Assembly: GCF_900168125.1 (NCBI RefSeq)
Contig: NZ_FUZF01000002.1
Span: 304,464 to 368,463 of the forward strand
DNA: 64,000 nt
Direction: 5' to 3'
Origin: Sphingobacterium nematocida
Lineage (GTDB): Bacteria > Bacteroidota > Bacteroidia > Sphingobacteriales > Sphingobacteriaceae
The position numbers and the translations under genes were made by a program. This document shows, piece after piece, positions 26,761 through 32,700 of this stretch (the stretch's first letter is position 1; every line of letters begins with the position of its first letter). Below the pieces are notes generated by a model. It did not search any database and was not told where the DNA came from. It saw only the letters and a program-made list of their open reading frames with translations.

Positions 26761-27336
26761 TTATTTCCCCTCTTCTTTGTAATTTGTGGCGTCTGCTGTC
26801 ATAATTCTGTCTTCGTCTTTTTTCGGCCGTCCCCCGTTATAATAGTAGCGTTTCCAATACGCCTCATTAAGACTACTAACCATTACTCCTTTGCTGGACG
26901 AAGCATGTGCGAATTTGTCATCTCCTAAATACACACCCACATGAGTAATACTCCTGCTACGGATTTTAAAAAAGACCAAATCTCCAGCTTGCAACTCACC
27001 TTTTCCAATAGGAGTTACATTGTCATATTGATTTCTACTGTTATATCCGATTGTGGTATTAAAGACATTTTCATATACGGCTAATGAAAATTTAGAACAA
27101 TCGATTCCTTTTTTAGAATCTCCACCTAAACGATAAGGTGTTCCTAACCAATCATAGACAAACTGATAAAGTTTGGTGCTTGCTGTAGCATTAACTGCTA
27201 CCCCCATGATTTGAGAAAAGTACTCTTTTGCAAGATTATCCTGATCTCCGGTTTTACTTTTGTTTGTTGTTTGTGCGTGCGACACTAGACAAAAGCCTGT
27301 CAATAGCAAGCCTGCTATTAGTTTTTTTGTTTTCAT
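26761..27336 (-). CDS. NlpC/P60-family peptidoglycan endopeptidase
   Basis: 191 aa. Signal peptide ending near SHAQ (residue 22), then an NlpC/P60 domain with the papain-like triad: C80 in GIDCSKFSLAVY, H132 in SITHVGVYLGDD and H144 in KFAHASSSKGV. It should cut the D-Glu/meso-DAP bond of stem peptides in the periplasm. It is monocistronic: terminator downstream and a 500-base intergenic region upstream that also serves the divergent thr operon. A tandem 18-base repeat with 21-base spacing lies 47-85 bases before its start. Confidence 0.92.
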   Translation of the reverse strand: MKTKKLIAGLLLTGFCLVSHAQTTNKSKTGDQDNLAKEYFSQIMGVAVNATASTKLYQFVYDWLGTPYRLGGDSKKGIDCSKFSLAVYENVFNTTIGYNSRNQYDNVTPIGKGELQAGDLVFFKIRSRSITHVGVYLGDDKFAHASSSKGVMVSSLNEAYWKRYYYNGGRPKKDEDRIMTADATNYKEEGK

Positions 27337-27652: not shown

Positions 27653-27685
27653 TTTGCATTTAATAAAAATGTTGTATTATCTTTA
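27653..27685 (+). promoter_or_regulatory. Promoter of the thr operon
   Basis: TTTG (27653-27656), 21-base spacer, TATCTTTA (27678-27685, one change from TAnnTTTG). Transcription would start near 27690, about 16 bases before the leader-peptide ATG. Confidence 0.6.
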
Positions 27686-27705
27686 TCTAAAATTTACGAA
27701 AAGAT

Positions 27706-27786
27706 ATGATTTTAAACGTTATTATTTCAACAACTATTATTACCACTGGGATAAACTCGGAGGGAGGTAGTTCTATGTTGAAATAA
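27706..27786 (+). CDS. thrL: Thr/Ile-rich leader peptide of the thr operon
   Basis: A 26-codon open frame, ATG to TAA. Codons 6-14 read IISTTIITT: four Thr and four Ile in nine residues, the same type of run as in the E. coli thr leader. It lies between a consensus promoter and an intrinsic terminator that precedes thrA. Ribosomes stalled at these codons when charged tRNA-Thr or tRNA-Ile is scarce would free the antiterminator described in the next entry. The function rests on this arrangement, not on similarity of the peptide as a whole. Confidence 0.85.
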   Translation: MILNVIISTTIITTGINSEGGSSMLK

Positions 27787-27838
27787 CACGTGTAATAAAT
27801 ATAGAAAGCCTTCCTCCAAAAGAGGAAGGCTTTTTTTT
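27722..27838 (+). promoter_or_regulatory. Transcription attenuator of thrABC
   Basis: Three competing hairpins can be drawn. (1) 27722-27732 with 27776-27786, perfect 11 bp, extended inside by 27739-27744 with 27766-27771; its 5' arm covers the Thr/Ile codons. (2) Antiterminator 27759-27767 with 27809-27817, nine pairs including one G-U. (3) Terminator 27805-27816 with 27822-27833, GC-rich, followed by eight T (27831-27838). Hairpins 2 and 3 share 27809-27817, and 1 and 2 share 27766-27767, which is the logic of classical amino-acid attenuation. Confidence 0.82.
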
Positions 27839-27875: not shown

Positions 27876-30323
27876 ATGAAGGTATTAAAATTTGGAGGTA
27901 CATCCGTAGGTACAGTGGCGAGTATAGAAAAGGTACTGTCAATTGTTAGGGATTCTTTTGATAAGGATGAGAAGCCGCTAGTGGTTTTGTCGGCAATGTC
28001 GGGAGTAACGAATCTATTGACACAGATGGCCGAAGACGCTGCAGAAGGGAAGGGGTTTAGTGAGAATCTGGAGATAATTGAAGAAAAACATTTCGATGTT
28101 GTCAGAAAACTGATTGCAGTCAAATTTCAAAATCCGGTCTTTACGAAGCTGAAACTAATGGTCAATGATCTAGACGACATACTGCAAGGTATAGCGACAT
28201 TGAGAGAGCTAAGTGCCCAAAGTAAAGATTTGGTCTTGTCCTTCGGAGAAAGGTTTTCTAATTATATGGTGTCTAAGATCATGGAGCAATATGTTCCCGA
28301 ATCTGAATATATCAATGCTTCTCATTATATCAAAACAGATTCTGATTTTGGGAATGCACATATTAAGGAAGATTTAACCACTCAACTGATTCAAGCTCTT
28401 TCCTATACCCATGCGAATAAGTTGCTTTTTGTTACGGGATTTATCGGTTCAAACGATAAAGGGAGGGTTACGACGTTAGGGCGTGGTGGTTCAGATTATA
28501 CGGCGGCTATATTTGGTTCCGTATTGGGCGCTTCTATTATCGAGATATGGACAGATGTGAATGGTATGTTGACCGCGGATCCAAGAATCGTGAAGAAGGC
28601 TTTTTCACTGCCTATATTATCCTATACGGAGGCAATGGAGTTGTCTTATTTTGGTGCTAAAGTCATTTATCCACCGACAATGATTCCGGCGTTTATGAAG
28701 AAAATTCCTATTGCGATTAGAAATACTTTCGAACCTCATCTGTTAGGAACCCGTATTCAATTCGAATCGGATAAGTCTAACTATCCAATTAAAGGTATTT
28801 CATCTATTTCAGATATATCGATCATCAATCTTACGGGAAGCGGAATGATTGGTAAATCTGGTTTTTCAGGACGTTTGTTTACCTTATTGGCTCGCGAGCA
28901 GATTAATGTTGTTTTAATCACACAATCTTCTTCGGAGCACAGCATTACGTTTGCAGTAAACCCATCGGATGCCACCAGGGCATTAACTTTGATTGCGGCT
29001 GAGTTTGAGCTGGAGTTGGCCGCAAATAAGCTAGTTATGCCAGAAGTAGAAGAAGACCTTTCTGTATTGGCTATTGTTGGGGAGAATATGAAGCGGACAC
29101 CTGGGATGTCAGGTAAATTATTTCACGCACTCGGTCGAAATGGTATAAACGTTCGTGCCATAGCTCAGGGGTCTTCTGAATTTAATATTTCTGTTATTAT
29201 TTCCAAAGAAGATCTTGCAAAAGCATTGAATGCTGTACACGATGCCTTTTTTGCGGAGTTAAAGAAAACATTGTATGTCTTTAATCTGGGTACTGGTAAT
29301 ATAGGCGCGACTTTGTTCAAACAGTTGTATAAGCAGCATGATTTCTTGTTGGAAAACAACGACATCGAAATTAAGGTGGTGGGAATCTCCAATTCAAGAA
29401 AAATGCTGTTTGATGTGTCAGGTGTTGATTTGGGTAGCTGGGAAGAAGCTTTGGAAACGAAAGGAGAGATTGCGGACCTGACCGGTTTCATAGAACATAT
29501 GAAAGCTCTTAATCTGCCCAACTGTGTATTTATTGATAACACGGCTAGTAAACTACCAGCAACTTATTATGAGGATATTTTTAAATCCAATATATCTATC
29601 GTGACCTGTAATAAAATAGCGAATTCGGGAGATTATGCCCAGTACCAGTCGTTACATGAAACAGCGCGTAAACACGGCGTAGATTTTTACTATGAGACGA
29701 ATGTCGGTGCGGGATTACCTATAGTACGTGTGTTAAAGGACTTGATGATGAGCGGAGATCGTATTCTGAAAATAGAAGCGATTTTATCCGGTACGATATC
29801 TTATATCTTTAACAATTTTGTGGGGGATGTTTCATTTTATGAAATTGTGAAGAAGGCGCAAGAGTTAGGTTATACAGAGCCCGATCCGAGAGACGATTTA
29901 GGTGGCGTTGATTTTATGCGTAAGATGTTGATCTTAGCTCGGGATGCTGGACATGCTATTGAATCTTCGGATGTAAACTTGGGTGCCATACTTCCAGAGT
30001 CTTGCCTATCGGCATCGTCTGTCGATGAGTTCTACGCAGAATTGTTGAAGGCCGAACAATACTTTAATGCTTTAAAAGATAGAGCTGCAGCTGCTGGTCA
30101 AGTAATCCGTTATATCGGTAAATTGGAAAAGGGGAAAGTTAGTATTTCTTTGCAGATGGTGGATGGCACACATCCATTTTACGCACTATCAGGAAGTGAT
30201 AATATCATATCATTTACGACCGAGCGTTATAAAGAAAGACCTCTCGTGGTGAAAGGGCCCGGTGCCGGTGCAGAAGTAACTGCAGGAGGCGTATTTGCAG
30301 ATTTGGTAAATGTCGGAGCGTAA
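27876..30323 (+). CDS. thrA: Bifunctional aspartate kinase / homoserine dehydrogenase
   Basis: 815 aa from the ATG at 27876, where MKVLKFGGTSVGT begins the kinase; the open frame runs 39 bases further up into the terminator. Residues 1-290 are aspartokinase (VLSAMSGVTNLL, GRGGSDYTAAIFG, EIWTDVNGMLTADPRIV), about 300-455 two ACT-type regulatory segments (SGMIGKSGFSGRLF, TPGMSGKLFHALGRNGINVRAIAQGSSE), and about 462-815 homoserine dehydrogenase (VFNLGTGNIGATL, GAGLPIVRVLKDL, GTISYIFNNF, KAQELGYTEPDPRDDLGGVD). It catalyses the first and third steps from aspartate to threonine. ACT domains suggest feedback inhibition in addition to attenuation. Confidence 0.97.
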   Translation: MKVLKFGGTSVGTVASIEKVLSIVRDSFDKDEKPLVVLSAMSGVTNLLTQMAEDAAEGKGFSENLEIIEEKHFDVVRKLIAVKFQNPVFTKLKLMVNDLDDILQGIATLRELSAQSKDLVLSFGERFSNYMVSKIMEQYVPESEYINASHYIKTDSDFGNAHIKEDLTTQLIQALSYTHANKLLFVTGFIGSNDKGRVTTLGRGGSDYTAAIFGSVLGASIIEIWTDVNGMLTADPRIVKKAFSLPILSYTEAMELSYFGAKVIYPPTMIPAFMKKIPIAIRNTFEPHLLGTRIQFESDKSNYPIKGISSISDISIINLTGSGMIGKSGFSGRLFTLLAREQINVVLITQSSSEHSITFAVNPSDATRALTLIAAEFELELAANKLVMPEVEEDLSVLAIVGENMKRTPGMSGKLFHALGRNGINVRAIAQGSSEFNISVIISKEDLAKALNAVHDAFFAELKKTLYVFNLGTGNIGATLFKQLYKQHDFLLENNDIEIKVVGISNSRKMLFDVSGVDLGSWEEALETKGEIADLTGFIEHMKALNLPNCVFIDNTASKLPATYYEDIFKSNISIVTCNKIANSGDYAQYQSLHETARKHGVDFYYETNVGAGLPIVRVLKDLMMSGDRILKIEAILSGTISYIFNNFVGDVSFYEIVKKAQELGYTEPDPRDDLGGVDFMRKMLILARDAGHAIESSDVNLGAILPESCLSASSVDEFYAELLKAEQYFNALKDRAAAAGQVIRYIGKLEKGKVSISLQMVDGTHPFYALSGSDNIISFTTERYKERPLVVKGPGAGAEVTAGGVFADLVNVGA

Positions 30324-30363
30324 AATTTGTATAAAATAGATGACCCCTTGTAACCAAAAAAAG

Positions 30364-31353
30364 ATGAATCAGAATAAGTTAGATAAAAAGATAGATTTCG
30401 AAAATATATTGGACAAAGTCCGAGTTTTTGCTCCCGCCACTGTGGCAAATATGATTTGCGGATTTGATATTCTCGGATTTGCTGTAGATAAGCCTGGTGA
30501 TGAAGTCAAGATGTATCGGGTGTCAGAGCCCGGTGTAAGAATTCGTTGTATAACTGGAGACGATGGTCGTCTCCCTTTAGACCCGGATAGAAATACGGTG
30601 AGCGCCTGTGTTAAGATGTTATTGTCAGATTTGGGATTGTTAAATGATATCGGTGTAGAGATTGAGTTGATTAAACATATGCCTATTGGTTCTGGTTTAG
30701 GCTCAAGTTCTGCCAGTACGGTAGCCGGACTTTTTGCCGTAAATGTTTTATTAGGGAGTCCTCTTTCTAAAACTGAACTAATGCCGTATTGCGTAGAAGG
30801 GGAACGATTAGCCTGTGGATATGGACATGCTGATAATGTAGCTCCTGCTCTTATGGGGGGAGTGACATTGATTCGAGGTCAGGCTGATTTGGACGTTATT
30901 AGACTTCCGGTTCCGGACGAATTATATGTTGGCATTGTGTTTCCTCAGGTTGATGTCCCGACACGTGATGCGAGGAAGCTGATCAAGGATAAAGTTCTTT
31001 TAAAAGATGCGGTGGTGCAGTGGGGAAATATTGCCGGGGTAGTAGCAGGACTTTTTCAGAATGACTACGGTCTGATTGGAAGAAGTATGCAAGATGTGTT
31101 AATCGAGCCTACACGGGCTATTTTGATTCCCGAATTTTATGAAATGAAGCGAATTGCTTTAGAGAATGGTGCATTGAGTTTTGGAATATCTGGATCGGGC
31201 CCTTCTGTTGTGGCGGTGTCTAGAGGAGGGGAGGTGGCACAAATCATTGTTGACAAAATTAAGGATCATCTGTCCGCTAGAGAGATAGATAGTTTGCAAT
31301 ATGTGTCTGCTGTTAATATAGCAGGACCCAAAGTGCTGGAATTTGATGTCTAG
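30364..31353 (+). CDS. thrB: Homoserine kinase
   Basis: 329 aa from the ATG at 30364, preceded by an A-run; another in-frame ATG at 30340 would add eight residues. GHMP-kinase fold: VRVFAPATVANMICGFDILGFA at the start, the ATP loop PIGSGLGSSSASTVAG (about 108-123), and the C-terminal GISGSGPSVVAV. It phosphorylates homoserine for ThrC. It begins 40 bases after thrA and precedes thrC by 39 bases, in one operon. Confidence 0.96.
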   Translation: MNQNKLDKKIDFENILDKVRVFAPATVANMICGFDILGFAVDKPGDEVKMYRVSEPGVRIRCITGDDGRLPLDPDRNTVSACVKMLLSDLGLLNDIGVEIELIKHMPIGSGLGSSSASTVAGLFAVNVLLGSPLSKTELMPYCVEGERLACGYGHADNVAPALMGGVTLIRGQADLDVIRLPVPDELYVGIVFPQVDVPTRDARKLIKDKVLLKDAVVQWGNIAGVVAGLFQNDYGLIGRSMQDVLIEPTRAILIPEFYEMKRIALENGALSFGISGSGPSVVAVSRGGEVAQIIVDKIKDHLSAREIDSLQYVSAVNIAGPKVLEFDV

Positions 31354-31392: not shown

Positions 31393-32700
31393 ATGAAATT
31401 TTATAGTACGAATAATAAAGATCTACGTGTTTCCTTCCAAGATGCCGTATTCCATTCCTTGCCACAGGATAGAGGTTTATATATGCCCGAAGTGATCCCG
31501 CAGTTAGCCCCTTTGTTTATCCGAAATATTCAGCAGTATTCTTTACAGGAGATCGCTTTGACAGTGGCAAGTGCGTTAATTGGAGATGATATTCCGAAAA
31601 GCGATTTGAAATCCATAATCGCAGACGCGATTAACTTTGACGCCCCCGTTAAGTTTTTGGATTCCGAGACAGCTGTTTTGGAGCTTTTTCATGGCCCTTC
31701 ATATGCTTTCAAAGATTTTGGAGCACGATTTATGAGTCGTGTGATGGGGTATTTCTCTAAAAAAGGGGATGGATTATTAGATGTCCTTGTTGCGACATCT
31801 GGTGATACAGGAGGTGCTGTTGCCCTGGGATTTCTTGGTGTTGAAGGAACTCGGGTCACTATTCTATATCCCAAAGGTAAAGTTTCTAAAGTACAGGAAG
31901 AACAGTTGACAACGAATGGACAAAATATCCGGGCGGTAGAGGTTGAGGGGACTTTTGATGATTGTCAAGCTTTAGTAAAGCAAGCTTTTGGTGATGCTGA
32001 GCTTAATGCAGTGCTACGTCTCACCTCCGCCAATTCCATTAATATAGCCCGTTTAATACCACAAACTTTTTATTATTTCTGGGCTTATGCGCAATTGAAG
32101 GCACAGGGAGTCGACGATGTAGTATTCAGTGTTCCTAGTGGTAATTTTGGTAATATTGGCGCTGGTTTATTGGCTTATAGAATGGGGCTACCTGTTAAAC
32201 ATTTTGTTGCGGGCACGAATGTGAATGATACAGTTCCACGTTTTCTAAAATCAGGTTCTTATGACCCTAAACCGTCTATTCAAACGCTGGCCAATGCGAT
32301 GGATGTAGGAGATCCCAGTAACTGGGTCCGTATCAAGGATCTATTTCAGGGAAATCTAGATGAATTACGTTATGTTATCTCTTCCTATACCTATACGGAT
32401 GAAGAAACACAAGTAGCGATGAAGGAGCTTTTTGAGAAATATAGTTATGTAGCATGTCCACATACTGCTATAGGATATCTAGCGGGGCAGGCATACCGAA
32501 AGGATCATCCCGGAGCGTATGCTTCTGTGTTCCTGTCGACAGCTCATCCCTGTAAATTTCCAGATGCGATCGACAAAGCAATATTTGCAAATGTAGAACA
32601 GCCAAAAGGCGCTTCTGATCTGTCTAATAAACCGAAAGTGGCTACAGCCGCTTCTATAGATTTTGAGGAATTCAAGAGCTATCTATTGAATTGGAAATAA
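31393..32700 (+). CDS. thrC: Threonine synthase
   Basis: 435 aa. Fold-type II PLP enzyme that converts O-phosphohomoserine to threonine. The Schiff-base lysine is K107 in PSYAFKDFGARF; VATSGDTGGAVALGF (about 134-148) and SVPSGNFGNIGAG (phosphate binding of PLP, about 250) are also plain. The N-terminus FYSTNNKDLRVSFQDAV is that of the ThrC-1 type. Last gene of the thrABC operon, followed by a likely terminator. Confidence 0.97.
   Translation: MKFYSTNNKDLRVSFQDAVFHSLPQDRGLYMPEVIPQLAPLFIRNIQQYSLQEIALTVASALIGDDIPKSDLKSIIADAINFDAPVKFLDSETAVLELFHGPSYAFKDFGARFMSRVMGYFSKKGDGLLDVLVATSGDTGGAVALGFLGVEGTRVTILYPKGKVSKVQEEQLTTNGQNIRAVEVEGTFDDCQALVKQAFGDAELNAVLRLTSANSINIARLIPQTFYYFWAYAQLKAQGVDDVVFSVPSGNFGNIGAGLLAYRMGLPVKHFVAGTNVNDTVPRFLKSGSYDPKPSIQTLANAMDVGDPSNWVRIKDLFQGNLDELRYVISSYTYTDEETQVAMKELFEKYSYVACPHTAIGYLAGQAYRKDHPGAYASVFLSTAHPCKFPDAIDKAIFANVEQPKGASDLSNKPKVATAASIDFEEFKSYLLNWK

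Follow-up and report, generated by a model that had tools for sequence, protein, structure and literature searches.

Transcription attenuation of the E. coli type is well known, and the thr leader of E. coli, thrL, is among the closest described counterparts of the region considered here. Before reporting its own case from the Firmicutes, a 2010 survey regarded leader-peptide systems as unproven beyond the Proteobacteria and Actinobacteria (PMC2965389). Within the Bacteroidota, 'strong clues' for leader-peptide attenuation 5′ of amino-acid biosynthesis operons have been described for Flavobacterium psychrophilum, with the main text not naming thr (PMC9723704), and Bacteroid-trp RNA (RF01692), which going by its name pertains to the trp operon, is a predicted cis-regulatory RNA of the Bacteroidetes (Weinberg 2010, PMC2864571). 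This report provides a comparative assessment of a leader that precedes thrABC in Sphingobacterium nematocida, a member of the same phylum as F. psychrophilum; 'the window' denotes the whole stretch of DNA analysed, i.e. 64 000 nucleotides. The leader very probably attenuates transcription of thrABC by way of the ribosome, charged tRNA-Thr and tRNA-Ile being what it senses, and a thr leader of this kind, which is not listed in Rfam and may have been predicted earlier, is now seen throughout the distant Sphingobacteriaceae.

The leader region and its genes

The leader region sits between an NlpC/P60-like peptidase gene and the thrA start codon (Table 1), and since the upstream gene is divergent and on the minus strand, the terminator within the region is not its own. 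Downstream, thrA, thrB and thrC each score above their own NCBIfam cut-off, and the ThrA protein is 94 % identical to that of Sphingobacterium sp. xlx-96. The putative promoter, if used, would place the start of transcription at approximately 27692. In most of 78 leaders, a TTTG-like box, a spacer of 20–21 nt and a TAnnTTT-like box lie about 11–26 nt 5′ of the leader ATG, and the flavobacterial study cites TAnnTTTG as the −7 box of the Bacteroidota sigma consensus (PMC9723704).

Table 1. Positions of genes, leader elements and pairings in the window
Feature	Position	Strand	Details
NlpC/P60-like peptidase gene	26761–27336	−	Divergent from thrABC
Promoter (putative)	27653–27685	+	TTTG 27653–27656, 21-nt spacer, TAtcTTTA 27678–27685
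Leader peptide ORF, MILNVIISTTIITTGINSEGGSSMLK	27706–27786	+	26 codons; ATG 27706, stop 27784–27786
Regulatory codons 6–14	27721–27747	+	Ile Ile Ser Thr Thr Ile Ile Thr Thr (IISTTIITT); 4 Ile and 4 Thr
Outer 1:2 helix	27722–27732 (TTATTTCAACA) : 27776–27786 (TGTTGAAATAA)	+	3′ strand contains the stop codon
Protector hairpin	27743–27750 : 27756–27763	+	Last two Thr codons pair with strand A; MFE structure
Antiterminator strand A, GGAGGGAGGT	27759–27768	+	10 bp with strand B; compensatory changes in relatives
Antiterminator helix extension	27771–27779 : 27798–27806	+	Covaries within Sphingobacterium
Strand B, GCCTTCCTCC	27808–27817	+	Terminator 5′ arm; common to terminator and antiterminator
Intrinsic terminator	27803–27838 (hairpin 27803–27835)	+	14-bp stem, 5-nt loop, T8 tract; −20.6 kcal/mol
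thrA, bifunctional (fused) aspartate kinase/homoserine dehydrogenase I	27876–30323	+	ATG at 27876; NF006959 1007 bits, cut-off 726
thrB, homoserine kinase	30340–31353	+	NF002288 357.7 bits, cut-off 194
thrC, threonine synthase	31393–32700	+	TIGR00260 278 bits, cut-off 167

The elements of the leader can be read directly from the DNA. Eight of the nine regulatory codons specify Thr or Ile, a density not attained when the intergenic region was dinucleotide-shuffled 2000 times (best shuffle, seven of nine), and the folding energy of the leader is 6.1 s.d. below that of shuffles. Three of the features by which attenuators are classically recognized are found together, namely a short ORF rich in Thr and Ile codons, a terminator ahead of the first gene, and a covarying antiterminator that is mutually exclusive with that terminator.

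Conservation and covariation among relatives

The leader was sought upstream of thrA in the 80 best named loci. A first scan, covering 260 nt, located it in 77 of the 80; in L055 and L080 it starts further out, at about 302 and 336 nt upstream, and L062 is cut by a contig end and cannot be judged, giving a denominator of 79. The leader is thus present in 79 of 79 judgeable loci, most of which have the full set of elements (L137 was left out of the comparison). Among 57 distinct codon runs, the final two codons specify Thr in every case and are followed by Gly (54) or Asp (3), i.e. a terminal TT(G/D), and the earlier positions are nearly all Thr, Ile or Ser, interchanging with one another and showing synonymous variation. 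Relatives nearly always use ACC for both of the final Thr codons (ACC ACC GG in most; ACC ACT GG in the window), the other Thr codons of the run being variable, and pairing with strand A in the protector hairpin would explain this near-constancy. As an observation apart, the thrA leaders of L091 (G007) and L055 (MIARAFRITGRIGMTTIMSIMGDVQSWR; MKTYFYTMTTITTTMTQIMEEAV) have Met codons mixed with those for Thr and Ile, which suggests that these two leaders may also sense the supply of Met.

Strands A and B change together. Over 63 distinct pairs, cognate A:B pairing was equalled by 0 of 10 000 permutations overall and by 4 of 10 000 within Sphingobacterium, shared ancestry remaining in these permutation tests. 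Compensatory pairs include GAGGGGAG/CTTCCCTC in Olivibacter, CGGGAAGG/CCTTCCCG in L034, CGGGGC/GTCCCG in Pedobacter and two from a different family, CAGAAAGG/CCTTTCTG and TAGAGAGG/CCTCTCTA. In L002–L005 and L007, the match between A and B continues into bases of the terminator loop (TTCTGG/CCAGAA in L002–L004), which argues for antiterminator pairing, since the terminator does not need those bases. Moreover, strand A is read in differing frames among the clades of relatives (RRK, GGR, AEE, EGGS) with its bases constant; hence, it is the bases and not the peptide that are conserved. The accessory pairings behave similarly, as the cognate arms of the outer 1:2 helix fit each other better than exchanged arms do (0 of 10 000 permutations overall and 6 of 10 000 within Sphingobacterium, with shared ancestry remaining), and a protector-like hairpin with a central mismatch recurs in most of 53 distinct relatives. 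The helix extension covaries within Sphingobacterium (0 of 10 000 permutations, shared ancestry again remaining), and outside that genus its permutation result is not significant (3005 of 10 000). Because strand A is shifted by at least one column between genera, RNAalifold recovered the terminator alone from a joint alignment, and A/B and the other helices were assessed by permutation and per-sequence folding in place of such an alignment.

These results bear on the initial annotation, which had described a classical peptide-leader attenuator of thrABC in a Sphingobacteriaceae-like genome. The genome is indeed that of a Sphingobacterium or a near relative, judging by ThrA; the 26-codon leader with four Thr and four Ile codons in nine positions is confirmed, and the protector, antiterminator and terminator pairings that make up its three mutually exclusive structures are all present. 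Absence of the leader frame or the hairpin pairing from relatives was to count against the annotation, yet the frame occurs in all 79 loci and the A:B pairing covaries. The annotation as a peptide-leader attenuator of thrABC is supported.

A proposed ribosome-mediated switch

In the proposed mechanism, RNA polymerase would start near 27692 and a ribosome would begin to translate the leader. If Thr and Ile are both in ample supply, this ribosome would advance beyond codon 16 and cover strand A, which, after the passage of the ribosome, would be held by the Thr codons (in the protector hairpin) and by the outer 1:2 helix; with A masked, B would pair with the 3′ arm of the terminator, and transcription would end at about 27838. 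With either amino acid short, the ribosome would stall at codons 6–14, over the 5′ side of the protector, leaving A free to pair, along with the extension, with B before the terminator 3′ arm exists, such that no terminator forms and thrABC is transcribed. Translation of the leader, termination and the response to Thr and Ile are what we infer; the fit of the codon positions to the switch is apparent from the sequence itself.

That fit was modelled by equilibrium foldings of truncated segments, as opposed to kinetics, on the assumption that the front edge of the ribosome lies 13 nt from the A-site codon. In this ribosome-position model, A pairs with B for every A-site codon as far as 14 (the last Thr codon), and masking of A begins at codon 17. 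When the full transcript from the window is folded, the antiterminator results if a ribosome occupies codons 10–14, and the terminator if it has reached codon 16 or beyond. A stall at codon 9 leaves the two states close, with the terminator slightly favoured by energy, and so the order of synthesis during transcription must matter there. A ribosome-free shortened transcript favours A:B, at 0.99 for the window and 0.97 for E. coli thrL in the same crude model. In the clade of the window, the stop codon lies several codons beyond strand A; consequently, a ribosome waiting at the stop codon no longer covers all of A, and termination would then rest on the protector and the 1:2 helix.

Other explanations for the region must be weighed against attenuation. 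One holds that control is exerted mainly through translation or mRNA stability, in which case the leader would be a uORF and the hairpin would serve for processing; such regulation has been little tested in the Bacteroidota, and other Bacteroidota thr leaders lack an intrinsic terminator. However, a 14-bp stem followed at once by T8 and conserved through changes on both sides is a textbook intrinsic terminator, making this explanation very unlikely: seven of the ten consensus terminator pairs show both-side changes among relatives, and, although an automatic scan gave no terminator for 6 of 78, visual inspection shows a hairpin with a T-run in most of the six. Riboswitches and T-boxes also work by exchange between antiterminator and terminator in a structured 5′ UTR. 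Nevertheless, a metabolite-binding riboswitch or T-box to which the ORF is incidental is extremely unlikely, given that no such family matches among 4227 Rfam families (the top match being Thr_leader), that the conserved parts are the Thr/Ile frame, with its synonymous variation, and strands A and B rather than a large aptamer, and that the codon positions agree with the modelled ribosome footprint. Finally, GGAGGAAG is Shine-Dalgarno-like in most relatives, but the notion that this GGAGG strand resembles a Shine-Dalgarno sequence because ribosomes pause or initiate there, and is no antiterminator, is exceedingly improbable and was rejected along with the riboswitch and T-box, as the strand covaries with the terminator arm, losing GGAGG, in Pedobacter, Olivibacter, L034 and family f3.

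Comparison with E. coli thrL

The best match of the window among the Rfam families is RF00506 (Thr_leader), over model positions 1–118 of 118; its score of 40.6 bits (E 2e-6), like the 29–41 bits of those relatives that match, does not reach the gathering score of 55, so that the leader is not a Thr_leader member by the standard of Rfam. Like the leader of the window, E. coli thrL has a run of Thr and Ile codons with an ITTG end, a terminator ahead of a fused thrA, and the same modelled switch point (A:B up to codon 14, masked from codon 17), and its strand A, at leader nt 55–63, falls within the codons immediately preceding the stop, just as it does in the 21-codon relatives. The geometry of the two leaders is equal. 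In contrast, the strand sequences are different, the ThrA proteins belong to distant lineages, and the clade of the window has the extended, 26-codon leader. The claim made at the outset that the region otherwise shares nothing with its E. coli counterpart was consequently too strong, in view of the Thr_leader match, the common ITTG tail and the like placement of strand A.

Other leaders in the Bacteroidota

Other families in the sample differ from the window in having a second type of thr leader (L117, L120, L123, L125–L127, L133, L134, L144, L155 and L157, and also L110, L112, L122 and L140–L142). Here, an ORF of approximately 12–36 codons has its Thr/Ile run at the end, with a hairpin immediately there (ACCCC-stop-GGGGT or, in family f8, ACGGG..CCCGT), the stop codon often lying in the loop, and a conserved CATATNATCC-like stretch follows the hairpin. 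Neither an intrinsic terminator nor a convincing Rfam match was found for this second type, which is possibly Rho-dependent.

Two further leaders were noted in the genome of the window. The his leader MITLLSHHIHMHHRQFGDM (L190, C28:105800-107400; HHIHMHH), in which the last His codon enters an ATCGCCA-GTT-TGGCGAT hairpin and an intrinsic terminator was not seen, resembles the thr leaders with a hairpin at the stop codon. The trp leader MTQSTYQFWWWPGANSVGRHLYWFSE (L191, C37:11200-12600) contains three Trp codons, an A strand (CGTCGGG), a B strand (CCCGACG) and a terminator, and on these elements is of the same antiterminator/terminator design as the thr leader. At E 0.1, the RF01692 covariance model matches neither the window nor this trp leader.

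Evolution of the thr leader

In the ThrA tree, terminator-type leaders fall in one strongly supported Bacteroidota clade (100/99), which includes the Sphingobacteriaceae along with several members of a different family, f3, and a single f2 genome. Those f3 genomes that encode another ThrA (44–45 % identical to that of the window) carry the other leader type, a pattern to be expected had a thrA-leader cassette moved between families. In three additional f3 genomes, G448, G432 and G409 (L146–L148), no leader was found upstream of thrA; their ThrA proteins, 63–67 % identical to that of the window, are nested among those of the Sphingobacteriaceae, an apparent case of thrA transfer with loss of the attenuator. 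E. coli ThrA falls far outside the clade, on a very long branch, and the lineages between have another (Thr-run) leader type or none. Since terminator-type leaders occupy one Bacteroidota clade with E. coli ThrA remote from it, an origin within the Bacteroidota, with sharing between families, is favoured over very ancient inheritance, shared descent with the attenuator of E. coli being the less favoured possibility. The initial annotation had offered 'independent or very ancient' origins; judged by the ThrA tree, the former is the more likely, though not proven, and the latter the less likely. A fuller scenario has about an even chance of being correct. In it, Thr/Ile attenuation of thrA would have arisen in the Bacteroidota independently of the Proteobacteria, converged on the same geometry and come to be shared between families along with the ThrA lineage to which it belongs. 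The sister lineages would have developed a second type of thr leader, not described before, with a stop-codon hairpin in place of the intrinsic terminator.

Implications

The Sphingobacteriaceae thr leaders would allow Rfam to be extended, and the system is easy to test. The phylum is of interest because translation initiation there usually proceeds without Shine-Dalgarno sites, whose absence in flavobacteria has been noted (PMC9723704). Going by the comparative evidence, ribosome-read attenuation, which entails tight ribosome–polymerase coupling, likely serves the Sphingobacteriaceae as a standing control of their amino-acid operons.
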